DNA of 64,000 nucleotides from Pedobacter psychrodurus. GTDB lineage: Bacteria; Bacteroidota; Bacteroidia; Sphingobacteriales; Sphingobacteriaceae. The translations under genes were made by a program, and so were the position numbers. The notes under the pieces were generated by a model that saw only the letters and a program-made list of their open reading frames with translations, did no database searches and had not been told where the DNA came from. Positions 332-62,427 of the stretch are shown in pieces. How positions within the stretch are numbered: the stretch's first letter is position 1; the number at the start of each line of letters is the position of its first letter. The stretch lies in contig NZ_SJSO01000016.1 in NCBI RefSeq assembly GCF_004331735.1, positions 62,001-126,000 on the forward strand, read 5' to 3'.

Positions 332-1687
332 ATGAAAATTGTACAGAAACTTAAAAACATACATTTTCTCTCGTTAATGGGTACCGGCGGCATGTCGGTA
401 TTGACGTTTTTGTTGACTGCTATACTATACCGCTCCTTATCCATAAAGGAAATCGGCATTTGGTTTTTCTTTCAATCCATGTTATCCTTTCTTGATACCT
501 TTAGGCAGGGTTTTTTGTCTACCGCATTTGTAAAGTTTTATGCAGGCACTTCACCCTCAAGAGGTCAGGAGGTTATCGGATCAACCTGGTTTATCGCCAC
601 CGCTACAACTATTGTCCTGTTATTGCTTAACATTCCACTTATTTTCATCGCTTTTCTGATCAAAGATGAAAGCCTCATCTATTTTGCCAAATTTTATTCC
701 ATCAACCTACTGTCATCTCTACCCATGATCGTAACGATGTGTATCGCACAGGGCGACCTACGTTTCGGACGTTTAATGTACATCAGGGTTTTTCAGGTCG
801 CTATCCTAATCCTGTGCCTTGGTTTTTTAATATTGACAAAACAGAATAACTTGTACAACCTGATGTACATCAATATCATTTCTGGAGCGATAACCAGCGT
901 GCTGTGTATCATTTTAGGCTGGTCGGGTATAGCTTTTTACGCCAAGCGGAGCAAAGCATGCACAAAAGAAATTTTCGATTTCGGAAAATATACCGTTGGC
1001 ACTTCAATAAGCTCAAGCCTTTTCGGTGTTACTGATACCTTTGTCATCAATTTTATGTTGGGACCATCTACTCTGGCTGTTTACAACCTGGGGCGGAGGT
1101 TGATGGAAGTTGTGGAAATTCCTTTGAGGAGTTTTGTCGCGACTGCCATGCCGGCCTTGTCTAGCGCCTTCAATCAGAATAACAAGGCCAAGCTTATATC
1201 CACCATGAGCAAATATATCGGTATCATCACCATTGGTCTCATCCCGTTTTTAATAGGAACCTACATATTTGCCGGTTATGCACTTGCCATTATCGGAGGT
1301 GGAAAGTACAATGGTACCGAAGCTGGTTCTATAGCGGTTAATATATTTAGGATAAGCGCAACAATTGCCCTGCTTAGCCCTGCTGACCGGTTTATGAGCG
1401 TTACCCTTGATGCGATACACAAGCCACAGATCAACTTATATAAAGTAATCGTAATGGTTATTGTAAATGTGATTTCAGACTTTGCTGGAGTTTACTTTTT
1501 CGGAAACATATACGGACTTGTTGTTGGCACTTTCTTTCCCACTTTAATAGGCATCCTTATCTCCTATTATTATATCAATAAAGGATACCAGAGCTTCTCC
1601 ATTTTTCACAGCTATATCCTAAGTTTTAAGGAAATTAAAAAATTTATATCGAATGGATTTAAAACCCCTGGTACAATATCAAATTAA
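332..1687 (+). CDS. MOP-superfamily polysaccharide flippase (Wzx-like)
   Basis: A 451-residue, highly hydrophobic protein with about 12 predicted transmembrane segments and no soluble domain. The N-terminus (LTAILYRSLSIKEIGIWFFF) and the pattern of paired helices fit the lipopolysaccharide/exopolysaccharide flippases of the MOP superfamily, which move undecaprenyl-linked repeat units across the inner membrane. It sits between glycosyltransferase genes on the plus strand, 15 bases ahead of a GT2 gene, consistent with one operon. Its length is normal for Wzx. It is the only flippase seen here, so it probably serves the polysaccharide assembled by the convergent minus-strand genes; that link is inference. 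Confidence 0.8.
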   Translation: MKIVQKLKNIHFLSLMGTGGMSVLTFLLTAILYRSLSIKEIGIWFFFQSMLSFLDTFRQGFLSTAFVKFYAGTSPSRGQEVIGSTWFIATATTIVLLLLNIPLIFIAFLIKDESLIYFAKFYSINLLSSLPMIVTMCIAQGDLRFGRLMYIRVFQVAILILCLGFLILTKQNNLYNLMYINIISGAITSVLCIILGWSGIAFYAKRSKACTKEIFDFGKYTVGTSISSSLFGVTDTFVINFMLGPSTLAVYNLGRRLMEVVEIPLRSFVATAMPALSSAFNQNNKAKLISTMSKYIGIITIGLIPFLIGTYIFAGYALAIIGGGKYNGTEAGSIAVNIFRISATIALLSPADRFMSVTLDAIHKPQINLYKVIVMVIVNVISDFAGVYFFGNIYGLVVGTFFPTLIGILISYYYINKGYQSFSIFHSYILSFKEIKKFISNGFKTPGTISN

Positions 1688-1702: not shown

Positions 1703-2566
1703 ATGAAAACGATATTTTCAGCACCTAAATGGTTGGATCAATACGAGTTTACCTTTAAGAGCATTAATGAGGTGCCTCCATCTTTCTTCCAGGGAATTAA
1801 TAAAAAACTAAAGGAATTGCAGAGCCCGAAGCCCGTAGTTACGATACTAATCGCCGCATGGAACGAAGAGCTGAATATTCTACGCAATATTTCCAGCCTG
1901 GCCAATCTCGTTACAGATTATCCCCTTGAAATTATTGTGGTTAATAATAACTCTACTGACAGAACACAGCAAACCCTTGATAACCTCAGCGTTACCAGCT
2001 ACTTTCAGGAAATTCAAGGTTGTGGTCCGGCAAGACAAATGGGAATGGAGCGTGCAGGAGGTGAATACATTTTGCTGGCAGACGCAGATTGTGTGTACCC
2101 CACCAACTGGGTTAATGATATGATGGAAAAGCTCACCATACCTGGCACCGCCTGCGTATACGGCAGGTATTCCTTTATACCCGAACCTGGCTTTTCGCGC
2201 TGGAAACTTTTTGTTCTTGAAAAACTCAAAGACCTGGCTGCAGAACTCAGACAGGTTAAACGGCCATATCTGAATGCTTTTGGAATCAGCATGGGTTATG
2301 TTAAGGCTTTTGGGTTACAGGCCGGTTATATTATGCATAATACGAGGGGTGATGATGGCAGATTATGTTTTGACCTGATGAAATTTGGGAAAATATTACC
2401 TGTACGCACGAACCGCGCAAGAGCATGGACCGCTCCACGCACCCTTCAGCGTGATGGTGATTTTGCGACCGCACTGCGCTCAAGGTTAAAACTAGAGTTC
2501 AGCAACCTTACGAGCTTACTGCGTGCCCACCCGGCACATGATACGAAGACAAGTAAAAATGAATAA
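1703..2566 (+). CDS. Family 2 glycosyltransferase (GT-A)
   Basis: A 287-residue soluble enzyme. From about residue 45 it has a GT2 core: VVTILIAAWNEELNILRNI, then LEIIVVNNNSTDRTQ, then the metal/nucleotide-sugar motif LLADADC near residue 130. The GPARQMG stretch before the DXD is typical of GT2 enzymes acting on lipid-linked oligosaccharides. No transmembrane helix is seen, so it is probably cytoplasmic or membrane-associated. It transfers a sugar from a nucleotide donor to a growing repeat unit; donor and acceptor cannot be told from sequence. The stop overlaps the next start, suggesting translational coupling. Confidence 0.82.
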   Translation: MKTIFSAPKWLDQYEFTFKSINEVPPSFFQGINKKLKELQSPKPVVTILIAAWNEELNILRNISSLANLVTDYPLEIIVVNNNSTDRTQQTLDNLSVTSYFQEIQGCGPARQMGMERAGGEYILLADADCVYPTNWVNDMMEKLTIPGTACVYGRYSFIPEPGFSRWKLFVLEKLKDLAAELRQVKRPYLNAFGISMGYVKAFGLQAGYIMHNTRGDDGRLCFDLMKFGKILPVRTNRARAWTAPRTLQRDGDFATALRSRLKLEFSNLTSLLRAHPAHDTKTSKNE

Positions 2567-3353
2567 CCCCCTTATGAAAACATTTAATTTCCCGGAAATA
2601 TCATTACTGATCACCCATTATAACCGACCTGAATCTTTAGAGAACTTACTGGCTAAACTAAAAGACACCGGTTGCGTTTTCGGGGAAATTGTAGTATCTG
2701 ATGATGGCAGTAAACCGATCATCCGCGAGCGGTTAAATCAACTTGCCCAGGTTTATGGTTTCAGGTTGGTAGGAACGGAGGCAAACCGTGGGCTGGGCAA
2801 TAACCTGAACAAAGGGCAGGATGCGGTAAGCAAACCATATACCCTATACCTACAGGAAGATTTTGAACCCAGCGTACTGTTTGGCGAAAAGCTGGCTTCA
2901 GCCCAGGGTGCTATGGACAATGATACGCAAATCGACATCGTAAAATTTTACGCCTATTACGCCTATCCTTATCTTAAACCATTTGATGATGATTTCGATG
3001 AAATGTTCATCCCTAGAATGGCATTAGATTATACGAAAATCTATTTTTATACCGATCATCCGCATTTGAGAAGATCTAATTTTTTTGAAAAATTCGGCAA
3101 ATACCCTGAAGGTATAAAAGGCGATACGACAGAATATAAAATGTGTATATCCTTTATCCAAAATAAAGGCAAAGGATTGTTTTATAAGGATTTTACCAAT
3201 CTGCTTTCACAACGCAATTCTCTTAGCGAGCCCAGCACCATGCAAAGGACCAATTGGAAACACCGTCCTAATATATTAATCAAGGTATTGCGCGATAGCT
3301 ACCGCCAGGTTAAATACAATATCGACATCCTTACCATGAAAAGATTAAAATAA
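2559..3353 (+). CDS. Family 2 glycosyltransferase
   Basis: The protein begins MNNPLMKTFNFPEISLLITH and carries a GT2-type N-terminus (SLLITHYNRPESLENLL, then EIVVSDDGSKP), with LYLQEDFEP in place of a classical DXD. I start at 2559 because this ATG overlaps the preceding gene's stop; the ATG at 2574 is equally possible, and the open frame reaches back to 2523 inside the preceding gene. The enzyme is soluble and near 265 residues, short for GT2 but with the catalytic half intact. Its stop codon abuts the stop of the convergent acyltransferase with no spacer. Sugar specificity is unknown. Confidence 0.78.
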   Translation: MNNPLMKTFNFPEISLLITHYNRPESLENLLAKLKDTGCVFGEIVVSDDGSKPIIRERLNQLAQVYGFRLVGTEANRGLGNNLNKGQDAVSKPYTLYLQEDFEPSVLFGEKLASAQGAMDNDTQIDIVKFYAYYAYPYLKPFDDDFDEMFIPRMALDYTKIYFYTDHPHLRRSNFFEKFGKYPEGIKGDTTEYKMCISFIQNKGKGLFYKDFTNLLSQRNSLSEPSTMQRTNWKHRPNILIKVLRDSYRQVKYNIDILTMKRLK

Positions 3354-4448
3354 TCAACCAGCAGTAACGCTTTTCTTTGACTTATACTGGAATCTCATTT
3401 CGATGTGCTGATAAGTCCACCTGGCGGCATAGTAAATTACGATACAATTCGGAATAAACAGGTAGGCATAAGCGCTTTCTGGCAGTTTAAATACTCTAAT
3501 AAAAATAACATTAAACATACTGATAAACAGGGTATGTACCATGTATATGGAATAGGAATACTTACCGAGTTTTTTGAGCAGGCCAATTTTACTTATAGCT
3601 TTGGAAACCAATCCCTTTTCGAATGAAAACACCATTATCGAGATAAAAAATACGATTTCGTAAATGAACCCGTAAGGTTTAAGTACCGGGCCGCTAATGA
3701 TGGCCATGCCTATTAACAGCAATACCCCAATCTCCATAAAACTGAATAATGACTGCCTGAAATCCGATAGCCGCTCGTGCAAGTATTTAAAGCAATATAG
3801 ACAGCATGCGCCAGAGAAAAAACCGATCAATCCTCTTAAAAAACCATAATCGTACGTGTAATCGAGTTTAAAGGATCCTGTTATCGTGTATAAGAGTATT
3901 GCCGCCAGAAGGGCAATAAACATATAAAACATTGGTTTCAATGCATTTCCTCTATTTGTACTGCTCAAGTGGCAACTAAGGGCAAATATGATGTAACTGA
4001 TAACCTCTGCGCTGATAGACCAGCTCACCAGATTCCAGCTCACATCATGTACATGCGGAAGCTTAATCGAATTAATCAGAAATAAAGAGGAAAAAAACGT
4101 TGTGGGTGAATTATCAAGAAAATTGTTGATATGGATATGATTAACCAGACCAAGTTTTACTCCTTCTATTGCAAGGAAAATAAGTAGCATTAAAAGATGC
4201 AGGGGATATAACCGCCTGATCCTTTTGGTTAGAAATAATTTTAGTTCTGTGAGGCTGTTGATACTTTGATAGGAATAACAGATTACAAATCCACTGAGCA
4301 CAAAGAAAAAATCCACGAACATATCAGCGTTCAAGATGAAGCTGTTGTTCAGTACCGGAGTATCAGAGAAAGCGCTCATGTGATAGAGTACAACAAGGGA
4401 TGCGAAGATTCCCCTGAACATATCCAACACCAAAAATCTGTGTTTCAT
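3354..4448 (-). CDS. Acyltransferase family 3 (OafA/ExoZ-like membrane protein)
   Basis: A 364-residue polytopic membrane protein with about ten hydrophobic segments. The N-terminus LDMFRGIFASLVVLYHM matches the acyltransferase-3 signature, with the conserved Arg12 and the His23 expected to act in O-acyl transfer. Members add acetyl or succinyl groups to exopolysaccharide or O-antigen sugars, taking acyl-CoA from the cytoplasmic side. It is the last gene of the minus-strand polysaccharide operon and meets the plus-strand glycosyltransferase stop to stop. A role in decorating the local polymer is inferred from context. Confidence 0.85.
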   Translation of the reverse strand: MKHRFLVLDMFRGIFASLVVLYHMSAFSDTPVLNNSFILNADMFVDFFFVLSGFVICYSYQSINSLTELKLFLTKRIRRLYPLHLLMLLIFLAIEGVKLGLVNHIHINNFLDNSPTTFFSSLFLINSIKLPHVHDVSWNLVSWSISAEVISYIIFALSCHLSSTNRGNALKPMFYMFIALLAAILLYTITGSFKLDYTYDYGFLRGLIGFFSGACCLYCFKYLHERLSDFRQSLFSFMEIGVLLLIGMAIISGPVLKPYGFIYEIVFFISIMVFSFEKGLVSKAISKIGLLKKLGKYSYSIYMVHTLFISMFNVIFIRVFKLPESAYAYLFIPNCIVIYYAARWTYQHIEMRFQYKSKKSVTAG

Positions 4449-4506: not shown

Positions 4507-5373
4507 TTATTGAATATTGATCAAAAGGTTTTCATCGATCTGAGAGAGAATCTTCGCATCAATATCGATATCAAACTTGCGCGCAAATAATTTCTCTGAA
4601 CTTCGGATACCTGCAAAATCCACCGACTTTAAAATCAAGGGATTGGGAAGATTTTCATCCCATGTTATCATACGGAGATTATCATTTACAATGGTATTTT
4701 TATAAGGTGAGTCCATTAACAGGGTTGCAATAAAAAACTCATCAGCCGCCCAGGTGTACTTCATAAAACGCATTAATCCTTGCTCCTCTTTTATGTAGCT
4801 GGTAAGGTATACCGCACATGCTGAAGAAATTGACCACCAACTGGAAATACAGGCTCCATACAGCTTTGCTGGCAATGGAAACTTTCTTTTCGGCAAAATA
4901 TTGTTAATGACGCGCTGCAGCAGATATTTTCCCTTAAAGTTAAAATCGGTGAAATGATAACTTTCAAACCTTGATCTGGCATGGCTCCACCACTTTTCAT
5001 TGCCTTCCGTGTCATAAGAGACAAAACTCTTGCCGATATTTTGTCGAAAAAAATCGGCAATTATACCAACAGGTTTAATGGGATAATCCTGTGCACTGAG
5101 CAGATTATAAAAATCGTAAGCTATTCGCTTTTGCAGGATCTCTTCTAAAGACCTTAATATGGCCTGAACAAACTGAAAACCTCCCCAGTTACAAACCGTT
5201 CTGTTAATGATGAAGTAAACATTAGGCAGATCCTGTAAATGCTGAAAACCGGATATCGCTATTTTCTTGTCGAGGTGGATGTAAAAATCGAACTCGGGAT
5301 GCGCCATGGCTTTGATCATCATACCCAGTTGTTTTGGATTTTTATAAGCCATTATGATATTAGCAACTCTCAT
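4507..5373 (-). CDS. GT14-type beta-1,6-N-acetylglucosaminyltransferase-like enzyme
   Basis: A 288-residue protein beginning MRVANIIMAYKNPKQLGMMI, then FYIHLDKK, and later CNWGGFQFVQAILRSLEEIL and NLLSAQDYPIK. These are the hallmark blocks of the core-2/I-branching enzyme family (GT14), which in bacteria transfers GlcNAc or xylose and does not use a DXD motif. No signal peptide or membrane segment is seen. Its start overlaps the stop of the upstream GT4-like gene in an ATGA arrangement, so the two are probably translated together. It probably adds a branch or backbone sugar to the local polysaccharide. Confidence 0.82.
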   Translation of the reverse strand: MRVANIIMAYKNPKQLGMMIKAMAHPEFDFYIHLDKKIAISGFQHLQDLPNVYFIINRTVCNWGGFQFVQAILRSLEEILQKRIAYDFYNLLSAQDYPIKPVGIIADFFRQNIGKSFVSYDTEGNEKWWSHARSRFESYHFTDFNFKGKYLLQRVINNILPKRKFPLPAKLYGACISSWWSISSACAVYLTSYIKEEQGLMRFMKYTWAADEFFIATLLMDSPYKNTIVNDNLRMITWDENLPNPLILKSVDFAGIRSSEKLFARKFDIDIDAKILSQIDENLLINIQ

Positions 5374-6569
5374 GGCCCAACAGGATTAACTTTATTCATA
5401 AATCGGTACATCGTCCCAACTGAATTTTTCCAGGTATGCGACCTGGCAAAAGCCTTTCTTTTATCCGTCAAAACACGATCTTTCTCTTTTAACAATTTTT
5501 CTATACCATTGCTGTAACCCTTTGCGTCCTCTGCCAAATCCACATAATCAGCAAATGGCTCCATAGCATCAGTTCTTGTGGCTATTGTTGGCTTGCCAAG
5601 AGCGAGGTATTCATCAATTTTTCTTGGATAGTTTCCAATAGTGAGTTCATTAACCGCCTGTGGGTTAAAGCATACATCGAATTCATCAATAAAAGCAGGT
5701 AGTTCATCTACCGGCCTTGCCCCTAAAAAATGAACGTTGGGTATCTGGTGTAAGGAACTTTCCTGAAAGCTGGCATCTTCGGGTCCAACCAATACAATGT
5801 TCCAATCTGGTCTGGACACCGCAATATTCCCTATGAGAGAAATATCCAGCCTGGCAGATGTTAGTACCCCAACATAGCCAATCCTGGGATGTGGGATATG
5901 CGCTAATTTCTTTTCTTCTTCACTTGAAACAAACCTGTCGAAAACAGTAAAATCACAACCCTGCCCAACGTTATATGACCTGGGATTATATTTTCGGCAA
6001 TAGCTCTCCAGATAGGCCGAATTGGTGAAACATAAATCACTTTGGGCGATGATTTCAGGTTCCATATATGCACCGTGTTTTCTGTAATAATCTGTAGCGA
6101 GCATATTGTCACGTGAGTAATATATACTCAACTTTGGCTTCAGCAGATCCTTTAAAAAAAAACTTCTAAACATGTCGCTATCATTAAAGAGTACATCGCT
6201 CTTAAAAGATAAATTTTCAGTCACTTTTTTGATTGCCTTAAAAAGCCGCTCATTGTTGAGCCTGTTGAGATAATTATAAATCCGTCCAGGGGGTAACCAG
6301 TTGATGGATTCTAAAATGGAATCGCAATTTAATACATATAGCCTTTCGTTAATTTTTTCCAGGCCGTTCTTCTTGCCCGAAATAACTTTGAGCTTTTCAA
6401 TTACCTCCTTGTTTTTACCATAACGCCATTTTGTAATCCGGTCGAGTGAAGGGTTAACATATAAAACACGGTTACTCGCTGAAAATTCTACAGCAATATC
6501 TTTACAATTACTCCCAATTTTGGTATCCCAGCCCTGCTGTCCGACGATAATAATATCTAAGTTTTCCAA
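5370..6569 (-). CDS. GT4-like (GT-B fold) glycosyltransferase
   Basis: A 399-residue soluble protein. It begins MENLDIIIVGQQGWDTKIGS and has a C-terminal Rossmann half starting near PRIGYVGVLTSARLD. A donor-binding stretch FNPQAVNELTIGNYPRKIDE followed by YLALGKPTIATR resembles the E-x7-E region of retaining GT4 enzymes. Length is normal for the family. It lies 12 bases after the membrane GT2 gene and overlaps GT14 by 4 bases. It belongs to the minus-strand polysaccharide operon; the sugar is unknown. Confidence 0.78.
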   Translation of the reverse strand: MENLDIIIVGQQGWDTKIGSNCKDIAVEFSASNRVLYVNPSLDRITKWRYGKNKEVIEKLKVISGKKNGLEKINERLYVLNCDSILESINWLPPGRIYNYLNRLNNERLFKAIKKVTENLSFKSDVLFNDSDMFRSFFLKDLLKPKLSIYYSRDNMLATDYYRKHGAYMEPEIIAQSDLCFTNSAYLESYCRKYNPRSYNVGQGCDFTVFDRFVSSEEEKKLAHIPHPRIGYVGVLTSARLDISLIGNIAVSRPDWNIVLVGPEDASFQESSLHQIPNVHFLGARPVDELPAFIDEFDVCFNPQAVNELTIGNYPRKIDEYLALGKPTIATRTDAMEPFADYVDLAEDAKGYSNGIEKLLKEKDRVLTDKRKAFARSHTWKNSVGTMYRFMNKVNPVGP

Positions 6570-6581
6570 ATTGCTGATGAT

Positions 6582-7748
6582 TTAGGGATGAATAATATGT
6601 TTTGTAGCTACCGATCTTTTGTTTGCACCTCTTGCATAAACGAGGGAAACCACCTGATAGTAAATAAATTTTGGGATACCTGCCAGTGATCTGTATATGC
6701 GGGCATCGGTTGGCTGTCTGAGCAGGGCGATTAAGAAACTGATCAAAAAGCTGAAAATCGCAAGTATCCAATAAACTGAGGCTACACTACCTGTTAAGAT
6801 ACTGATCATTAGGAGAAGCAAGGAGAGAATCAGAAAGATAAATAAAGGTGGCCTGAGCAGAATAACACCAAAAAGCAACTGGTTTAAACTTCTATTTTTT
6901 ATTCCCTTACCAATGATGCTTAACCCGTAGCCGCAGAAACGGAACCATGTATTGATCCACCTTGCACGTTGATTGACTAGTTGAGTAGGGTTGACGGTTT
7001 TTTCGTCATATACAATCGCATTTTTTGCAAATGCGATTCTTTTGCCTGAAAGAAGAATACCTGCCTGAACCACTTTATCAAATCCAGCGCCATGAAAATC
7101 CATCGCTGCAATAGCATCCTGGTACAACCCAGCTTTAAATGCCATCCCCGATCCCGCCAAAGTTGCCGATGAACCAAGTTTAAACAACAGCTCCCCGTCG
7201 TAAAAGTGGTAGTAAAGATCTCTCGCCGCATCCAGGCAGGCATAAGTACTGTTCAGATTTTTTGCGGCCCTTAATCCCTGTACCGCTTCAAATCCCTGAT
7301 CAAAATATTTGTTAAGTTCATTGATATATTCAGGATGGACCAGATTGTCGCTATCGATAATGGTAATGATATCGTGCTTCCTAATAAAATGTTTAATGGC
7401 ATAATCATGCGATTTTATATTGCTGGCGAGCGTTTGTGGAGGTCTTAAAACCACTACACGGTCAGCATCGAATATCAATGAAGCTAAAGGGCAATTATCC
7501 GCAACGATATAGATCATGTAATTATGATAGTTGAGATCGAGTAGAGATTTTACAACCTGTTGCAAATAATCCGTTTGTTCGTAAGCAGTCACAATAATCG
7601 CATAATCAGGCATTTGCTTAATTAACGTTTTCCCTATCCTGTCGCGAACAAAAACAGAAAAGACCACCATCAATAGTGGAAGTACCAGATTGTATCCGAT
7701 TAAAACCTGAAAAACCAGCCAAAGCAGGTTAATGATGTTATTGATCAT
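6582..7748 (-). CDS. Membrane-bound family 2 glycosyltransferase (cellulose-synthase-like)
   Basis: A 388-residue protein with an N-terminal membrane segment (residues 5-30), a GT2 domain (YAIIVTAYEQTDYLQQVV, then IITIIDSDN as the DXD), a QRARW motif (the Q-x-x-R-W motif of processive GT2 enzymes), and two or three C-terminal membrane helices around residues 290-345. This layout is shared with hyaluronan/cellulose-synthase-like enzymes. It may act processively or add the first sugars at the membrane; the sequence cannot decide. The 5' end overlaps the small ORF at 7738-7845. Confidence 0.82.
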   Translation of the reverse strand: MINNIINLLWLVFQVLIGYNLVLPLLMVVFSVFVRDRIGKTLIKQMPDYAIIVTAYEQTDYLQQVVKSLLDLNYHNYMIYIVADNCPLASLIFDADRVVVLRPPQTLASNIKSHDYAIKHFIRKHDIITIIDSDNLVHPEYINELNKYFDQGFEAVQGLRAAKNLNSTYACLDAARDLYYHFYDGELLFKLGSSATLAGSGMAFKAGLYQDAIAAMDFHGAGFDKVVQAGILLSGKRIAFAKNAIVYDEKTVNPTQLVNQRARWINTWFRFCGYGLSIIGKGIKNRSLNQLLFGVILLRPPLFIFLILSLLLLMISILTGSVASVYWILAIFSFLISFLIALLRQPTDARIYRSLAGIPKFIYYQVVSLVYARGANKRSVATKHIIHP

Positions 7749-7846: not shown

Positions 7847-9124
7847 TTAAGCAGTTAAATAGTTTAGTTCTTCAGGTTCGGCAATCGGTTTATCCATTAT
7901 GCGGGCATTATATATGAAAACCCACGACAGGTATACCACTATGGCAGTGGGCATGGTATTAAGCACTTCATTTCCATAACTACAGAACAGTACCCCACCA
8001 AAGCCCGACGTGAGCGCAATAAGTTTGATTCTTAATCCATTATCGCGGATCGTCCAGGTAATGCCACAGCATTTCCCCAAAATAAACATCATGATACAAA
8101 ACCATAGGGTGAGACCTACAACCCCATACATAGCCCATATTTTAACAAATAAGCTATCGGGAGGAAAGGTAGAGAGATAGGTTCCGCCATTATATAACAC
8201 CCCGTTATAGCCCAAACTACCCAGCCCGCCACCAAATGGGCGGGTCTCCATATAATTTTTTAGGTTGTTTTGATTGATAAGCCTCACGTTTAGAGAGGCA
8301 TCCTCTGGATTAAGGGCGGTGCGCAATCTGTATATCTGATAGTTATTATCACCGATATGGGTAAACATCAATATACTCACCAGTGCAAGAGCTGTAGCGC
8401 CACCAAGAAAAATGGCCTTAAGATTTTTACTAAGAATAATTGCGATAACTCCGCCCACTAACAGGGCAAAAAGTGCTCCACGTGTACCTGAAATCAGCAT
8501 GCCATAAATACAAAATGCTGAACTGGCCAATAGCGCCATGCGTTTCCATACCTTCATTTTACCAAACGAGAGTATCAGCGCAATTAAGCCGATATGGGCC
8601 TGTGATGCCCCAAACTGCCCCGCATCGGTAAAGAACGAAAAAACCCTCAGTCTCCCCCAGAGCAGGTGGGTAGCGGCATTGGCTTGCAGAAATGCATTCT
8701 CACCTGCCGATAATCCAAAAAACAATTGCTTGATGCCATTCAAGGTTGCTAATACTGAAAGGGAAATAATAAGTATCAGGAAAAGATCAAGGTCCTTTCG
8801 TGTTTTAAAAATAACAAGCCCCAGCCAAGTCATCACAAAAGGATACAGCGCTATACTGCGTAATTCGGCAACCCAGCCTAGCAAACTCGCCTCAGGATTA
8901 AATACTTCAAGTAAACTCAAAGCGAACCATATCAGTAACGAATAGAAAAGATCGTTATTGATACTTTTAGCATCAAAGCCGGGTTTAGAAACAATTGTGG
9001 CAATAATAATGAGTATCAGAAACCCCTCTACAAAAATCCCGAAAGGCAGCCCTCCTATCTCACGGAAAAGTATTCCAAAAATGAAACCGTAAACCAAAAG
9101 AATTATAAATATGCTTCTTTGCAT
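7847..9124 (-). CDS. O-antigen ligase/polymerase-like membrane protein (Wzy/WaaL family)
   Basis: A 425-residue polytopic protein with about 10-12 transmembrane helices. A large periplasmic loop is visible around residues 275-325 and contains ETRPFGGGLGSLGYNG, a stretch characteristic of the O-antigen ligase/Wzy_C family loop with its conserved Arg and Gly residues. Such proteins polymerise repeat units or ligate chains in the periplasm. With a flippase and a Wzc-like protein in the same locus, polymerase is the more likely role. It is 15 bases downstream of the Wzc-like gene and followed by a microprotein. Confidence 0.8.
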   Translation of the reverse strand: MQRSIFIILLVYGFIFGILFREIGGLPFGIFVEGFLILIIIATIVSKPGFDAKSINNDLFYSLLIWFALSLLEVFNPEASLLGWVAELRSIALYPFVMTWLGLVIFKTRKDLDLFLILIISLSVLATLNGIKQLFFGLSAGENAFLQANAATHLLWGRLRVFSFFTDAGQFGASQAHIGLIALILSFGKMKVWKRMALLASSAFCIYGMLISGTRGALFALLVGGVIAIILSKNLKAIFLGGATALALVSILMFTHIGDNNYQIYRLRTALNPEDASLNVRLINQNNLKNYMETRPFGGGLGSLGYNGVLYNGGTYLSTFPPDSLFVKIWAMYGVVGLTLWFCIMMFILGKCCGITWTIRDNGLRIKLIALTSGFGGVLFCSYGNEVLNTMPTAIVVYLSWVFIYNARIMDKPIAEPEELNYLTA

Positions 9125-9139: not shown

Positions 9140-11272
9140 TTAGGTTATCGGATGATCATAAAAAACCCAACCGGCAAAGCCCTGCTGCTGTTTAATATAT
9201 TCAATATGTTTGCGTTGGTCATCTGAAATGATGTTGCCTGACCTGAAAACCAGTACACTCATATCTACAAACAACAGCCATTCTTTTGTAAGGTTAAGGT
9301 CCTGAAGACTGCTGATATCGATCACAATATTATCAAACTCTTTTCTTAGCTCATCAAACGCACTGCGAAGGTTTTTAAGACTTTGCGTTTCCAAAAGCGA
9401 TTTTTTTACCGCATTTTTAGTCATTACCGTGATGAGATCTTCTGTTTGTAGTTTGCGTTTGACAATAAAATTCTGAAAGCTCTGGCTTGATGCAATCTTC
9501 TTTTGTGCAGCACCTTCAAGAGGTAGTTCTTCAGCGATAAGTAGGGTCTTCCTGCCTACCATTGCAAAAGAATAAGCAAGGTTATAAGCCAGCTGGGTTT
9601 TTCCTTCCTTAGGCAATAAACTGGAAATTCCCAGCACCTGTTCTTTGTTCTGGTCCAGTTTCTTTAGTAACTCAAACCTCAGCGACCTGATCTCGTTTTT
9701 GTAGTCATCATGGGTAGCACTACTATTATCGTTCCAAATGTAACTCGGGTTGCGTTCGCTCGTGGTAATTTTACTAAAACTGCCAATCACTTCTGATCCA
9801 GTTGCGATTTTGAGCCTATCCACATCTTTTATTTTTTGATCCAGTATAAGCATGAGCAGTAAAACGCCAAAGCATAGACCAAAACCAGCAAAACTAGATC
9901 CCATTACATATAAAACTTTCTTTGAGCGTAGTGCCTTACCAGGCAAACCTGCCTGCTCAATTTTAAGGTGCATACCCAAGCTGTTGCTCGTTTTGCTCTG
10001 ATTGGATTGATCCAGAGCAGCCATATATTCTTTCGTGGCCAAATCGGCATCCCGTTGGTAATTCTGGATATCAGCATCATAAGGCACCATACTGGCATAC
10101 CTTGCCCTTAAGGTGGAAAGTTCATGATCAACGGTTTGCATACTGCTTTTAGCCTGTTGGAGCTTAATCTCGAGATCGAGCTTCTGCTGTACCAAAGCCT
10201 GCTTGGAAGTACGAGGGTCCAATACGTTTTCATCTGAATTCGAATTGCTTTTGGCCGATATCAGCCTGTTTAGCGAATCGATCTTCTTTTGGCCCGACAT
10301 CTTAAATCCACCATCAATATAAGTATTATTTGCCACTTCCAACTGTCGTTTTAAACTCACAATGGCCTTATTATCACTATAGCTGCTTCCTTCAACAAAA
10401 GAATCCCCCCCTCTTAATTTACCTATTATCGTGCCGATTGCTGCCTGGTTGGATGCAATTGTACGAAGCATTTCCGCACGTTGGCTTTCATATTTTGAAA
10501 TTTCATTGTAAACTGTTGCCGATTGTTCATTCAGGTTAAGTACCCCTTTTGTTTTTTTAAATGATGAAAGAGAAGAATTCTTCTTGTCCATATCCAGTTC
10601 TTTTACTTTGAGCAACGAATCCAAAACCGCCGCGGCATTGCTCTGGTTTGTGGAAACATCAGAGCTGTAGATATTGATACATTCCTGACTCAAACTATTT
10701 ACCACAAATGCGGAAAGACTTGGATCCTCTGAAGTAAAGCCAACCATAATCAGATCACTGTTACCCGCATGGGAGATTTCTAGCTTATCTCTTAACGCGT
10801 CTTCTCCATAGCCCATATTTTCCGCAAGGTCAAAAATAGCGTAAGCGCCACTGTTATCTTCGAGGGTAAGTAGGGATTTTGTTGCCAGCTTGGTTTTTAA
10901 TATGCCGATAATTTTAGCCTTGGCAGCTGCATCCATTGACTTTAAATACTTCGAATGATCTCTAAAGGAATGTTTCACATCGCTCAGGTCGTGGATCATC
11001 AAATTATAGCTCAGAATGCTTAACATCCTTTTCATGCCAAATTTTTCGATGATGTTGGAGAATTGCTGATTCACCGCAAAAAAATCGACAGACTGATTGC
11101 TTATGGCTTTTTTGGACGGATCGAGTAAACCGGTAGATATCTGGGTTTCAGAGTAATATTGCTTGGGAATTCTTTTAACTAAAATATAGGCAATTATCCC
11201 CACCAATACCGGAGAGGAAATGAGTACCCACTTGTAGCGCTTAATAAGTTTGAAAAATATTTTAATGTCCAT
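9140..11272 (-). CDS. Wzc/GumC-like polysaccharide co-polymerase with degenerate BY-kinase domain
   Basis: A 710-residue protein. It has an N-terminal Wzz-type domain with TM1 at about residues 15-33, a coiled-coil periplasmic region at about 210-430, TM2 at 453-477 and a cytoplasmic P-loop ATPase at about 525-710. The Walker A-type motif P554KEGKT is present. The Walker A' stretch reads LLIAEELPLEG, where tyrosine kinases have D-x-D, so the acidic residues are replaced (Ala580, Glu582). Walker B (IVID at 649-652) is kept. There is no C-terminal tyrosine cluster. It probably controls chain length and export; kinase activity is doubtful. Confidence 0.85.
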   Translation of the reverse strand: MDIKIFFKLIKRYKWVLISSPVLVGIIAYILVKRIPKQYYSETQISTGLLDPSKKAISNQSVDFFAVNQQFSNIIEKFGMKRMLSILSYNLMIHDLSDVKHSFRDHSKYLKSMDAAAKAKIIGILKTKLATKSLLTLEDNSGAYAIFDLAENMGYGEDALRDKLEISHAGNSDLIMVGFTSEDPSLSAFVVNSLSQECINIYSSDVSTNQSNAAAVLDSLLKVKELDMDKKNSSLSSFKKTKGVLNLNEQSATVYNEISKYESQRAEMLRTIASNQAAIGTIIGKLRGGDSFVEGSSYSDNKAIVSLKRQLEVANNTYIDGGFKMSGQKKIDSLNRLISAKSNSNSDENVLDPRTSKQALVQQKLDLEIKLQQAKSSMQTVDHELSTLRARYASMVPYDADIQNYQRDADLATKEYMAALDQSNQSKTSNSLGMHLKIEQAGLPGKALRSKKVLYVMGSSFAGFGLCFGVLLLMLILDQKIKDVDRLKIATGSEVIGSFSKITTSERNPSYIWNDNSSATHDDYKNEIRSLRFELLKKLDQNKEQVLGISSLLPKEGKTQLAYNLAYSFAMVGRKTLLIAEELPLEGAAQKKIASSQSFQNFIVKRKLQTEDLITVMTKNAVKKSLLETQSLKNLRSAFDELRKEFDNIVIDISSLQDLNLTKEWLLFVDMSVLVFRSGNIISDDQRKHIEYIKQQQGFAGWVFYDHPIT

Positions 11273-11286
11273 TACGATTTTCTTAT

Positions 11287-11970
11287 CTATTTAACCTCTG
11301 ACAATGGCTGACCGATAACCTCTTCCAATAAATCTTTGGCTTTCAAATAATCAGACTCTGCCTGTACCTGCAGCGAAATGGCAGATGTTTGGGCAATACG
11401 CGATTGATTGTAAACATCGAGAGTAACCTGACCTTTCTCAAATTTATACCTCGAGCTTTCCGCCACACCTTTGCTGTCTTGAGCACTTTGGGTGTAAACT
11501 TTTAGCAGACTGGTTTGCAGTAAAAAATCATAATATCTCTTCTTTACTTCAACAATTAGTCCGTTGTCGAAATCAAGTTCCTGATATTTGGCGATCATGT
11601 AGTTCGCTTTGGCTTTTTTAACGTTATAAGGTTTCTGCAAAAACGAACCCAGGTTAAAATTAATTCCAAACTGAAAACCGTTTACGTTGTATGGATTAAT
11701 CGGATCGACAGCAGTTTTACCCTGCGGGCGATAAATGTATGAAGCACCGAACATATCCAGATAAGACATTTTCGCTACGCTAACATCCTGTTTAAAACTT
11801 TCACTGGTAGCTTGCTGAACTTTTCGTTTGGCGTAATTCTTTTTTGCAAGTTCAATGTACTTTGCAAGATCATTGTTATCAACAGCACCAATCACCGTTT
11901 GTTGAGCCTGAGATTGAAAACTGATGAAGCTGCAGGCTATAATAATAAGTATATAAGATATTTTTTTCAT
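11287..11970 (-). CDS. Single-repeat TolC-like outer-membrane protein
   Basis: I start at the MKKISYILIIIACSF signal peptide (11970); a longer frame reaches 12012 into the upstream gene. The mature part is about 205 residues and contains one copy of the TolC/outer-membrane efflux repeat: a helix around AKKNYAKRKVQQATSE, a beta segment around FQFGINFNLGSF, and paired helices through VEVKKRYYDFLLQTSLLK to SRYKFEKGQVTLDVYNQSR and LEEVIGQPL. TolC family members normally have two such repeats in 400-480 residues, so this is half-length. Its place between a sugar transferase and a Wzc-like protein suggests it forms part of the polymer exit route. Confidence 0.75.
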   Translation of the reverse strand: MKKISYILIIIACSFISFQSQAQQTVIGAVDNNDLAKYIELAKKNYAKRKVQQATSESFKQDVSVAKMSYLDMFGASYIYRPQGKTAVDPINPYNVNGFQFGINFNLGSFLQKPYNVKKAKANYMIAKYQELDFDNGLIVEVKKRYYDFLLQTSLLKVYTQSAQDSKGVAESSRYKFEKGQVTLDVYNQSRIAQTSAISLQVQAESDYLKAKDLLEEVIGQPLSEVK

Positions 11971-12004
11971 TGGGGGTATATTAAATAGTTTAATTGAAAA
12001 TGGG

Positions 12005-13078
12005 TTACACATCTTCTTTCTGAATCAGGGCAGGCAATGTTTTAAGAATAATTTTAAAGTCGAGAAAAATGGAATAATGGTTGGCATAATAATTATCAAG
12101 TTCTTTACGCTCACTCTCTGACATGTCTTTTTTCCCTCTGCGGCTTATCTGCCATAATCCGGTTAGTCCTGCTGGCCCGTTAAATCTGGTAGACCATTTA
12201 TTCGTAGTGAGTTGCTCGGCCTCGTAAAGCGGCAACGGCCGGTTTCCCACCAGCGACATGTCGCCGATGAGTACATTAATGAGTTGTGGAAGTTCATCAA
12301 CACTGGTTTTCCTCAGTATTTTCCCTATCCTTGTAATCCTGGGATCATTAGAAAATTTAACAAAGGCTGATTTTCCTTTTGAGTTGCCCTCATTCGCATA
12401 TTGATTGAGATTAGCGAGCTGGCCAATCATTTGATCAGCATCACTGCGCATGGACCTGAACTTATAAAAATCAAAAATCCTGTATCCGGCACCAACGCGT
12501 TTGCTTTTATAAATAATGGCACCTTTAGATTCAAGTCGGATCATTATAGCGATAATGATAAACAATGGCGACAATAAAAGTAAGGCAATGCCCGAAGCGA
12601 TGATATCGAATATCCTTTTGCTTAAAGGCATCTTGTAGCTTTCCTGCATATCAGCAGAAATTTCGAGCACATTCGGCTTTATTGCTTTAAACTTAACCAA
12701 AAAAGCAATCCTGGAAATAAAATCTGCCGCTGGAAAGGGATGCAGATAGTAATCGTTTGCCCTCACCTGAAGCGCTTTTTTTCTCCAATCGGCATTTTCA
12801 GTCGTACCGATCAGTACAACAATAAGATGACTGAGTATAGGATGGTCTCTGATAAAAGAAACCTGATTAAACCATTCAGGGTTTCCGTCAACTTCAATCA
12901 TCACCAGATCAGGAAGACTTAAAAAAGTTTGCTGCTGGATATAAGACTGAAAGTCATCAATAAAAATAAGTTCTTTGATGCACCCGCCCAGGCTTTCAAA
13001 TATGAAGTCCCTCAATAATTTACCAAAATACACTGACCGGACATTGGCCACAGCGCTATCTTTGTTCGGAATGTTCAT
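12005..13078 (-). CDS. Receiver-like domain fused to polyprenyl-phosphate sugar-1-phosphate transferase
   Basis: A 357-residue two-domain protein. Residues about 15-130 have the order of a response-regulator receiver (LPDLVMIEV, IVVLIGT, DYYLHPF), but the phospho-acceptor position is Glu62 and the conserved Lys is His113. Residues 152-357 are a bacterial sugar transferase: KRIFDIIASGIALLLLSP with one membrane anchor, then KSKRVGAGYRIFDFYKFRSM, DELPQLINVLIGDMSLVGNR, and a Leu-rich end. It should start the repeat unit by moving a hexose-1-phosphate onto undecaprenyl phosphate at the inner membrane. The start overlaps the receiver gene's stop (TAATG). Confidence 0.85.
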   Translation of the reverse strand: MNIPNKDSAVANVRSVYFGKLLRDFIFESLGGCIKELIFIDDFQSYIQQQTFLSLPDLVMIEVDGNPEWFNQVSFIRDHPILSHLIVVLIGTTENADWRKKALQVRANDYYLHPFPAADFISRIAFLVKFKAIKPNVLEISADMQESYKMPLSKRIFDIIASGIALLLLSPLFIIIAIMIRLESKGAIIYKSKRVGAGYRIFDFYKFRSMRSDADQMIGQLANLNQYANEGNSKGKSAFVKFSNDPRITRIGKILRKTSVDELPQLINVLIGDMSLVGNRPLPLYEAEQLTTNKWSTRFNGPAGLTGLWQISRRGKKDMSESERKELDNYYANHYSIFLDFKIILKTLPALIQKEDV

Positions 13079-13482
13079 TATGCGATCAACCTGCTAATCT
13101 GATTTTTCAAAACTGTCGGATCAAAAGGTTTCTCCATATAGCTATCGATCCTGAAAGACATATTTTTTACTTTTTCCTCCAGATTTTCCTCTCCTGAAAG
13201 CACCATTATTGGCGTGTTGCGGTAGAAGCCGCTACACTTGAGGTTTTGGATAAACGCGCTCCCGTCAAAATACGGCATCCTTAAACTGGAAATGATGAGA
13301 TCGGGATCATTCCCGTTCTCCAGCCAGCTCAATGCATCAATTCCACTGGTTTTGATGGTCAGCCTATATTCTGGTGCCAAAATGAAGTTCAATAACTTTC
13401 CGAGATTTAATCCTCCATCTACCAGCAGAATATGTTTCTTGGTATAAGGCTTGATACCGTTCTTTAAAATAAGATTTTTCAT
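13078..13482 (-). CDS. Stand-alone receiver-like protein lacking the phospho-acceptor Asp
   Basis: A 134-residue CheY-like domain: HILLVDGGLNLGKLL (one acidic residue instead of two), PDLIISSLRMPYFDG, PIMVLSG and SYMEKPFDP. By alignment with the usual 'PDLxxxDxxMP' pattern the phospho-acceptor position is Ser66, while the switch Ser and the active-site Lys118 are kept. It is thus a pseudo-receiver that probably cannot be phosphorylated in the usual way. The gene is joined by a 1-base TAATG overlap to the receiver-sugar transferase fusion. It may hold that enzyme or an assembly partner by protein contact. Confidence 0.8.
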   Translation of the reverse strand: MKNLILKNGIKPYTKKHILLVDGGLNLGKLLNFILAPEYRLTIKTSGIDALSWLENGNDPDLIISSLRMPYFDGSAFIQNLKCSGFYRNTPIMVLSGEENLEEKVKNMSFRIDSYMEKPFDPTVLKNQISRLIA

Positions 13483-13698: not shown

Positions 13699-14241
13699 TT
13701 AAGTTTTCTCAACCGAGATAATATATTTCTTCTTTAACACCGTAGCTGTATTCCCTACCATTACACAGTTATCTTCAACATCTTTGGTAATTACCGAGCC
13801 TGCTCCTATAATTACATTATTTCCGATGTTCACATCACCGAGTATTACTACATTAATGCCGATATCTACATTATTACCAATCCTTGGCGCCCGGCTGTAG
13901 CTTCCATTCTCTTTCATCTTGGAGCTGATGTTGGTAAGCTGCCTGATATTACAGTTTTCGCCGATGACGGTGTTGCTACCGATAACCGTTCCAAAACCAT
14001 ATTGAATCCTAAGGCCCCTGCCGATAACCGCACTTGAGTTGATACCGATATTCATCATCCAGCCAATGGCAAACTTGTAGAGCAGTAAGTACCAGAAAAA
14101 AATGAACCGTAAAAATTTGTACCGGTAAATTAACGATGAGATTCTATAGAAGAGCATGATCATCCTGGACTTGAAGTTTCCTTTATTATCCTTCCAGTCT
14201 TGAAAGATATAAAGTGACTGCTTCTGCCCCTCAGAAATCAT
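13699..14241 (-). CDS. Hexapeptide-repeat acetyltransferase (serine acetyltransferase-like)
   Basis: A 180-residue protein with an alpha-helical, partly hydrophobic N-terminus (about residues 28-62) and a left-handed beta-helix of hexapeptide repeats from about residue 68 (GLRIQYGFGTVIG, IGENCNIRQLTNIS, then IGNNVDIGINVVILGDVNIG). The CysE/WcaB-type end IGAGSVITKDVEDNCVMVGN is clear. It probably O- or N-acetylates a sugar of the locus using acetyl-CoA. It is the first gene after a 370-base non-coding region and may open the operon. A housekeeping CysE is less likely given the context. Confidence 0.8.
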   Translation of the reverse strand: MISEGQKQSLYIFQDWKDNKGNFKSRMIMLFYRISSLIYRYKFLRFIFFWYLLLYKFAIGWMMNIGINSSAVIGRGLRIQYGFGTVIGSNTVIGENCNIRQLTNISSKMKENGSYSRAPRIGNNVDIGINVVILGDVNIGNNVIIGAGSVITKDVEDNCVMVGNTATVLKKKYIISVEKT

Positions 14242-61830: not shown

Positions 61831-62427
61831 TTATTTTAGCAATCCAATGAAAACGAAAGAGATGAGTGGTATCGTATTATTTTCGCCAACCAAGGTCCGC
61901 AATGTTTTTAAGGCTTCTCTTAAGTGGACCTTAACGGTAGAGGGGGCAATATGGAGTATTTCTGCAACTTCTTTCTGCTTCATCCCTTCAATATGGCACA
62001 TACGGTAAACCAATCCCTGTTGCTTGGGTAGCTTATCTAATAACTGATCTACATAGGTCTGTGCATCTTTCCGCATAATCTCATCTTCGGTTCCTGTGTC
62101 GCGTTCAGTCCACATAACCTTACTTAAATCTGATGTTTTGTTTTCGGTAGCAATAGCCCTAAGCGAGTCTAGTGTAAGGTTAACAGCAATCCTTCTAATG
62201 TAGCCTCCAAAGTTTCCAACTTCGTTAAGACCATCTCTTTTTAACCATATTTTAAGGAAGGTTTCCTGAACCACTTCTTCAGCCCTTTCTTTAGATTTCA
62301 AGTAGCGGTTGGAATAAGAAAAAACTTTATTTTTATAAGCATCAAAGATCAAGCGAAAGGCCTGTTGATCGCCAACAGCAATTTTGAGCATTAAATCTCG
62401 TTCCTCTCCCAATTCCTTATTTTGCAT
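61831..62427 (-). CDS. ECF RNA polymerase sigma factor (FecI-like)
   Basis: A 198-residue protein: AFRLIFDAYKNKVFSYSNRY and EEVVQETFLKIWLKRDGLNE for region 2, and LPKQQGLVYRMCHIEGMKQK with EVAEILHIAPSTVKVHLREA for region 4. It ends in a hydrophobic tail (IPLISFVFIGLLK). It probably drives transcription of the SusC/SusD genes when FecR is released. The gap to fecR is 157 bases. Confidence 0.93.
   Translation of the reverse strand: MQNKELGEERDLMLKIAVGDQQAFRLIFDAYKNKVFSYSNRYLKSKERAEEVVQETFLKIWLKRDGLNEVGNFGGYIRRIAVNLTLDSLRAIATENKTSDLSKVMWTERDTGTEDEIMRKDAQTYVDQLLDKLPKQQGLVYRMCHIEGMKQKEVAEILHIAPSTVKVHLREALKTLRTLVGENNTIPLISFVFIGLLK

Follow-up and report, generated by a model that had tools for sequence, protein, structure and literature searches.

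In this work, we analysed a window of 64,000 nucleotides from Pedobacter psychrodurus (positions 62,001 to 126,000 of contig NZ_SJSO01000016.1, here C8, in a genome of 6.09 Mb in 58 contigs), where a block of genes at 9140-13482 encodes a half-length TolC-family protein, referred to below as half-TolC, next to a Wzc-like polysaccharide co-polymerase. The results confirmed the presence of this half-TolC block without Wza. We consider it fairly probable that the block codes for the core of a Wza-free export pathway of the Wzx/Wzy type, in which a homo-oligomer of the single-repeat TolC protein is docked on a pseudokinase co-polymerase. The four genes of the block are all intact and lie on the minus strand; they overlap or nearly so, in agreement with the overlapping series described in the first-pass annotation, which was made from the letters of the window.

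A single-repeat TolC-family protein coupled to a Wzc-like gene

The OEP profile matched half-TolC once, over residues 50-234 of 241 (frame 245 aa) and over profile positions 2-187 of 187. Only 14 bp separate its stop codon from the start of the Wzc-like gene, which leaves no room for a second TolC half. Among the 21 OEP matches of the same genome, 18 form pairs in nine proteins (frames 444-498 aa), and the rest are two weak partial matches (frames 401 and 382 aa) and half-TolC itself, the only protein there with a single full repeat. The half-length protein of the first-pass annotation was thus borne out as one complete OEP repeat against two in each of nine paralogues. All 23 members of an alignment of half-TolC sequences (A1) matched OEP, and Met15 is invariant among them; this second Met, common to the family, is likely the true start.

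In outer-membrane factors, each protomer carries a repeated motif, made up of two membrane strands, a long helix and a pair of shorter helices, that goes back to a gene duplication, and the proteins are trimers with 12 strands (PMC8277102, in part). Half-TolC has the OEP repeat and lacks the two-repeat protomer of the TolC family. If the invariant Pro128 lies just past the second strand and Gly194 is the tip, as we assumed, the span between them is 66 residues, to be compared with 67 residues for H3/H7 of OprM (same source). With a long helix of full length, half-TolC would be half of a TolC-family protein in circumference and TolC-like in height. The nearest solved structures by the half-TolC profile were TolC (E 2.8e-5) and CmeC (E 6.8e-4), and in the best TolC chain the profile matched both repeats, each weakly. 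We also considered half-TolC as a lipoprotein; this was rejected, as the lipobox-like IIAC of the window protein was matched in none of 40 relatives.

A first search of 59 genomes found half-TolC in 22 of 36 same-genus genomes, the window's own included (E 1.4e-23 or better, frames 226-266 aa); the protein of Pedobacter sp. Leaf216 is 90% identical to that of the window, and one match (G002) has a stop codon within the matched stretch. Furthermore, 201 genomes of the family were surveyed with profile A1. This gave 111 strong matches (E 5.1e-47 or better, frames 226-291 aa), and the other 29 of the 140 listed started from E 2.3e-13, in frames of 441-498 aa in all but three. We kept the 111 together with the divergent second pair of one genome (G571), that is, 112 copies in 109 of the 201 genomes, and left out 28 weak matches: 26 in the 441-498-aa frames and two others, of which that in G586 is partial (frame 273 aa) and that in G566 lies in a frame of 1452 aa. 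These numbers bear on the idea that half-TolC comes from a full-length TolC by pseudogene formation or by faulty sequence assembly, which could be suggested by its length, about half that of the genome's two-repeat TolC-family proteins. The gene is intact and conserved, and its 111 strong matches in short frames stand against 26 of the other 29 in long ones, so that conservation already contradicts this idea and we give it almost no credence.

Across 395 surveyed genomes of the phylum, 25 had a short-frame match (less than 331 aa, E 1e-7 or better); seven of the 25 belong to classes other than that of the window, and the Wzc-like class was also present in 23. Conversely, when the 29 genomes with the Wzc-like class at E 1e-30 were considered, half-TolC was found in 26, after three loci (L081-L083) had been read; in L084 and L086 a short Wza-like gene takes its place, and neither half-TolC nor Wza was recognised in L085. 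Such a distribution argues that half-TolC is a conserved design spread over the phylum and no local truncation. Neither this spread nor the degenerate kinase of the Wzc-like partner, described below, had been noticed in the first-pass annotation.

The coupling of half-TolC to the Wzc-like gene is strict. All 112 half-TolC genes of the family survey lie directly 5′ of a Wzc-like gene of the same class on the same strand, with gaps of 2-158 bp (median 8.5), measured between match ends and not exact gene ends. The survey gave 116 Wzc rows, or 114 after removal of the second pieces of split matches (G455, G476); 112 of them pair with half-TolC, and the 113th (G559) proved on reading its locus to have a divergent half-TolC of 250 aa beside it. 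The last one, G467 (L087:3608-5815, from a 2.2-Mb genome), has no half-TolC beside its Wzc and no strong match elsewhere in the genome, possibly because of a secondary loss.

We then read 40 half-TolC loci for their gene content. Wzc-class genes were present in 39 and Wzy in 36, followed by the two most frequent glycosyltransferases (29 loci each), the receiver (22) and the receiver-transferase (21). Half-TolC adjoins Wzc in 33 loci and lies 1.6-7 kb from it in the same cluster in six; in the last one (G036, L057) the two genes are on different contigs. One example was scanned of each unlabelled gene cluster that recurs in at least five of the 40 loci; these proved to be glycosyltransferases, an AraC-type regulator, a histidine kinase, an acyltransferase, a phosphodiesterase, a glyoxalase and one small protein without matches (five loci). 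No second outer-membrane-type gene was among the scanned clusters. This speaks against another outer-membrane barrel in or near the locus acting as the exit with half-TolC as its periplasmic part, for which the composite OPX/beta-barrel translocon of Myxococcus is a precedent (PMC9601211, in part; OPX, outer-membrane polysaccharide export protein). The OEP profile of half-TolC includes membrane strands of its own, and we regard this alternative as improbable. From its membership of the TolC family, half-TolC might be expected to work with an efflux pump or in type I secretion, its place in the locus being due to chance; however, no pump genes were among the recurrent clusters scanned, polysaccharide loci from other classes of the phylum contain the protein too, and the coupling in 112 of 112 cases already contradicts such a role, which makes it very improbable.

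Pairwise distances in the 13 genus-level loci with all five genes correlated strongly for half-TolC and Wzc (r 0.94) and for half-TolC and Wzy (0.88), and less for half-TolC and the upstream transferase (0.56) or the receiver (0.59); a 16-locus version of the correlation gave 0.92 and 0.84. Such values point to joint inheritance of half-TolC and Wzc, not to contact between them. When the window (11287-13482) was compared with locus L035, the receiver was 92% and the transferase 88% identical, as against 57% for half-TolC, 53% for Wzc and 59% for Wzy. The sharp break in identity falls between the receiver-transferase and half-TolC genes, and it looks as if the export-polymerase cassette had been exchanged as a block.

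Wza and other OPX proteins in half-TolC genomes

A whole-genome search with PF02563 (Wza) found no match on contig C8. The genome has three matches on other contigs (C34, C25 and C12), and each of these genes is followed directly by a Wzc gene of its own (763-802 aa). When the three proteins were made into a Wza profile, it had no match in the 40 half-TolC loci (755 kb); as a control, the same profile recovered Wza from 20 of 20 control loci other than the three seeds, and long OPX proteins too. The results uphold two statements of the first-pass annotation, namely that the window has no Wza and that the TolC-like protein stands in its place; it lies directly 5′ of the Wzc-like gene. The reservation made there, that a Wza might lie beside the locus outside the window, found no support, since the PF02563 matches are on other contigs only, each with a Wzc of its own. 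Where a PF02563 match shares a contig with half-TolC in the same-genus genomes, the shortest distance between them is about 26 kb (G025).

In addition, we picked 35 half-TolC genomes with no more than two PF02563 matches (G029 from the same-genus set, the rest from the family survey). Twelve of them have only long OPX proteins (frames 683-883 aa) and therefore no short Wza to lend; the one long protein that was scanned has several SLBB domains. In nine regions round such proteins, from six genomes, a gene of 349-370 aa directly adjoins the long OPX gene in eight, the ninth being cut by a contig end, and all five of these neighbours that were scanned matched Wzz, with E values between 5e-7 and 2e-4; one match exceeded the curated cut-off.

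These data have to be weighed against the explanation that the exit is provided in trans, by a Wza or by a long SLBB-rich OPX protein from another part of the genome, with half-TolC as an accessory (a collar, adaptor or plug) between the OPX and Wzc-like proteins. A single repeat is indeed unusual for a channel, and at least one PF02563 match was present in every half-TolC genome tallied. However, each of the three Wzas of the window's own genome lies beside its own Wzc, and 12 of the 35 genomes have only long OPX proteins, which in eight of the nine regions read have the 349-370-aa gene as their own neighbour. We therefore hold an exit in trans to be rather unlikely.

Two side observations concern OPX proteins themselves. 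The long OPX proteins beside a Wzz-type gene without a kinase (L101-L109, eight of nine regions) make up another export type in these genomes, distinct from that of half-TolC. The two short Wza-like proteins mentioned above (169 aa in L084:5278-8013 and 172 aa in L086:6857-9643), whose adjoining Wzc proteins have intact motifs and long tyrosine runs, are candidates for OPX proteins that lack the outer-membrane helix, of the kind known from Myxococcus.

The Wzc-like partner and the other genes of the locus

The Wzc-like protein of the window has the Wzz domain, the periplasmic helical part and the fused nucleotide-binding domain of a type 2 polysaccharide co-polymerase (PCP-2), and a profile of 24 such proteins matched the solved Wzc over the helical part and the kinase domain (E 1.1e-29). 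It has kept the Lys-Thr of Walker A and the Asp of Walker B, has lost the A′ Asp and has no tyrosine tail; by sequence alone, it lacks the full set (Walker A, A′, B and tyrosine tail) of a tyrosine autokinase.

To place this protein, a tree of 67 Wzc proteins was built by a quick method, without bootstrap and drawn from its midpoint. The 40 half-TolC-paired proteins (39 loci and the window; L057 was left out, as its fetched stretch holds no Wzc) and the 25 Wza-paired ones form two sides of one branch (SH-aLRT 100), L085 and L087 being placed in no group, and the pairing labels need one change in the tree as against about 20 in shuffles. The two sides differ clearly in their kinase domains. All 25 Wza-paired proteins have kept the Lys and Ser/Thr of Walker A, the A′ Asp and the B Asp, and have 5-10 tyrosines in the last 45 residues. 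On the half-TolC side, the Walker A Lys is present in 35 of 40, the A′ Asp in 6 and the B Asp in 20; not all four tested residues are present in 37, and none has a tyrosine cluster (0-3 tyrosines). These counts suggest that the half-TolC-paired Wzc is mostly a degenerate, largely dead kinase. Since both the tyrosine tail and the kinase motifs are lost, the half-TolC assembly is presumably not cycled by tyrosine phosphorylation. A query with a PHP-type tyrosine phosphatase from the Wza locus L059 matched only itself among the loci, 20 of the 23 control loci being only 4-5 kb long. An MFP-like docking motif (RLS; MFP, membrane fusion protein) was sought by eye in the Wzc-like consensus, and nothing convincing was found.

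The stand-alone receiver of the window has Ser in place of the phospho-acceptor Asp, as the first-pass annotation had noted in calling it a pseudo-receiver. This part of the claim stood; a conserved pseudo-receiver as part of the design was rejected, because 18 of 21 receivers in half-TolC-type loci keep the Asp, and Ser is found only in the window, Leaf216 (L034) and L035. The receiver-like part of the transferase had no Pfam receiver match and weak NCBIfam ones, its phospho-acceptor position being Glu in 14 of 14 genus-type rows; it is possibly a signal input to the first enzyme of the pathway.

The genes of the locus are listed in Table 1. Judged from these domain matches, the locus is a Wzx/Wzy-dependent polysaccharide cluster, in agreement with the Wzx and Wzy genes of the first-pass annotation, with the reservation that PF04932 covers Wzy polymerases and ligases alike.

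Table 1. Genes of the half-TolC locus, with positions in the window
Feature	Position	Strand	Evidence
Stand-alone receiver, phospho-acceptor Asp lost in this strain	13078-13482	-	PF00072 E 2.4e-13; alignment
Initiating sugar-phosphate transferase with receiver-like N-terminal part (Glu at phospho-acceptor position)	12005-13078	-	PF02397 E 2.9e-60; alignment
Half-length single-repeat TolC-family protein (half-TolC)	11287-12012	-	one full OEP (PF02321) match, E 4e-20
Wzc-like polysaccharide co-polymerase, degenerate tyrosine-kinase domain, without tyrosine tail	9140-11272	-	Wzz E 1.4e-5; kinase motif counts
Wzy polymerase or O-antigen-ligase-type protein	7847-9124	-	PF04932 E 1.6e-12
Glycosyltransferase, family 2 type	6582-7748	-	PF13641 E 4.5e-33
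Glycosyltransferase, group 1 type	5370-6569	-	PF13692 E 9.6e-10
Branching-enzyme-type glycosyltransferase	4507-5373	-	PF02485 E 3e-20
Acyltransferase	3354-4448	-	PF01757 E 4.5e-20
Wzx-type flippase	332-1687	+	PF01943 E 2.7e-17
Two family-2 glycosyltransferases	1703-2566 and 2523-3353	+	PF00535 E 2.5e-25 and 4.6e-13
Hexapeptide acetyltransferase	13699-14241	-	PF00132 E 1.9e-11

Proposed export route and comparison with known systems

What the sequences show is the single OEP repeat, the strict coupling to Wzc, the lack of Wza in the loci, a separate Wzc branch and the decay of the kinase; the channel, its subunit number, its docking and its control belong to the proposal. In the pathway that we propose, Wzx would flip the repeat units and Wzy would polymerise them, with the Wzc-like co-polymerase as a largely kinase-dead scaffold that organises Wzx/Wzy and reaches across the periplasm. 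A homo-oligomer of half-TolC would serve as the outer-membrane duct, in line with the exit channel suggested in the first-pass annotation. As one repeat contributes two membrane strands, a closed barrel of the TolC type (12 strands) would need six subunits; alternatively, eight subunits with 16 strands would agree with the eight-fold symmetry of Wzc. The periplasmic tips of half-TolC might meet the helical arms of the co-polymerase, as Wza does in E. coli. The receiver and the receiver-like part of the transferase may have replaced tyrosine phosphorylation as the means of control; since they are present in only about half of the loci, this takeover is a guess. A wider statement can be made, namely that an OPX-free channel, made of six or eight TolC subunits with one repeat each and matched in symmetry to a ring of kinase-dead Wzc, is a further outer-membrane route for polysaccharides that has been kept across classes of the phylum, and that half-TolC is possibly a living form of the single-repeat TolC that preceded the duplication; we regard the chances of this statement as evenly balanced.

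Several observations weigh against a Wza-free export core built on half-TolC. AlphaFold, run for half-TolC alone as a monomer from one sequence, gave no usable fold (pLDDT 31), and the number of six or eight subunits is drawn by analogy. No half-TolC genome among those tallied was free of PF02563 matches, and the genomes that lack a short Wza still have long SLBB-rich OPX proteins, which could act in trans. All four kinase residues are kept in three of the 40 half-TolC-paired Wzc proteins, and with the Walker A Lys retained in so many of them, ATP binding may persist in many members. The length of the helical arm is not diagnostic and was rejected as the mark of a new docking surface: it is 152-169 residues in the 40 half-TolC-paired proteins and 140-141 in 23 of the 25 Wza-paired ones, and the other two have 172-173. 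Finally, the PF04932 match cannot tell Wzy from a ligase, and G467 is a member of the Wzc-like class without half-TolC.

In the standard account of Gram-negative Wzx/Wzy export, an OPX protein serves as the exit, and the Wzc type has a cycle of tyrosine phosphorylation as well; both were apparently replaced together in one widespread lineage. If true, this would add a polysaccharide export design, a TolC-type protein with an oligomer number that is unlikely to be three, and a natural test of co-polymerase assembly without tyrosine phosphorylation. In the open-access literature, preprints and subscription papers lying outside it, no description of a half-TolC exporter was found among the matches listed, and an earlier description is possible. 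The word TolC is absent from the main text of PMC9601211 and PMC9603273.

The half-TolC system probably works like the Wza-Wzc capsule exporter of E. coli, with which it shares the Wzx/Wzy pathway and a Wzc-type gene directly after that of the outer-membrane component (PMC12881504, in part). Unlike that exporter, the half-TolC locus has no OPX protein, its outer-membrane component is a single-repeat TolC, and its co-polymerase is without the tyrosine tail and mostly without the kinase residues, so that it has neither the Wza nor the full set of kinase motifs and tyrosine tail that define the E. coli type. In E. coli, the kinase and the tyrosine tail control assembly and disassembly of the Wzc octamer, the K540M variant forms stable octamers, and the Wzc-Wza complex has C8 symmetry (same source).

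Departures from the Wza channel within the Wzx/Wzy pathway have been described. A paper of 2022 sets two known outer-membrane export mechanisms beside a composite of a short OPX protein and an 18-stranded barrel, the EpsY/EpsX translocon of Myxococcus (PMC9601211, in part). Like the half-TolC system, EpsY/EpsX departs from the Wza channel; however, it keeps the short OPX protein and adds the barrel, and neither was found in the half-TolC loci. In Myxococcus and Caulobacter, kinase-like scaffolds without Walker motifs and tyrosine tail are separate proteins (PMC12004946, in part). The pairs EpsV/EcpK and HfsA/HfsB thus resemble the half-TolC system in combining a co-polymerase with a pseudokinase domain, whereas in the latter the pseudokinase is fused and the exit protein is TolC-like (same source).

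Among TolC-family proteins, TolC and OprM share with half-TolC the OEP repeat with its strands, long helix and tip; half-TolC differs in having one repeat and no adjoining pump, and if it closes a TolC-type barrel, it does not do so with three subunits (PMC8277102, in part). A link between TolC and polysaccharides is known from a tolC mutant of Sinorhizobium meliloti, which has no exopolysaccharides in the culture supernatant, the loss of galactoglucan being put down to failed WgeA secretion and that of succinoglycan to suspected envelope damage (PMC2912261, in part). Explained in this way, the losses do not make TolC a dedicated exporter there, unlike what we propose for half-TolC. The S. meliloti protein is a full-length general TolC.

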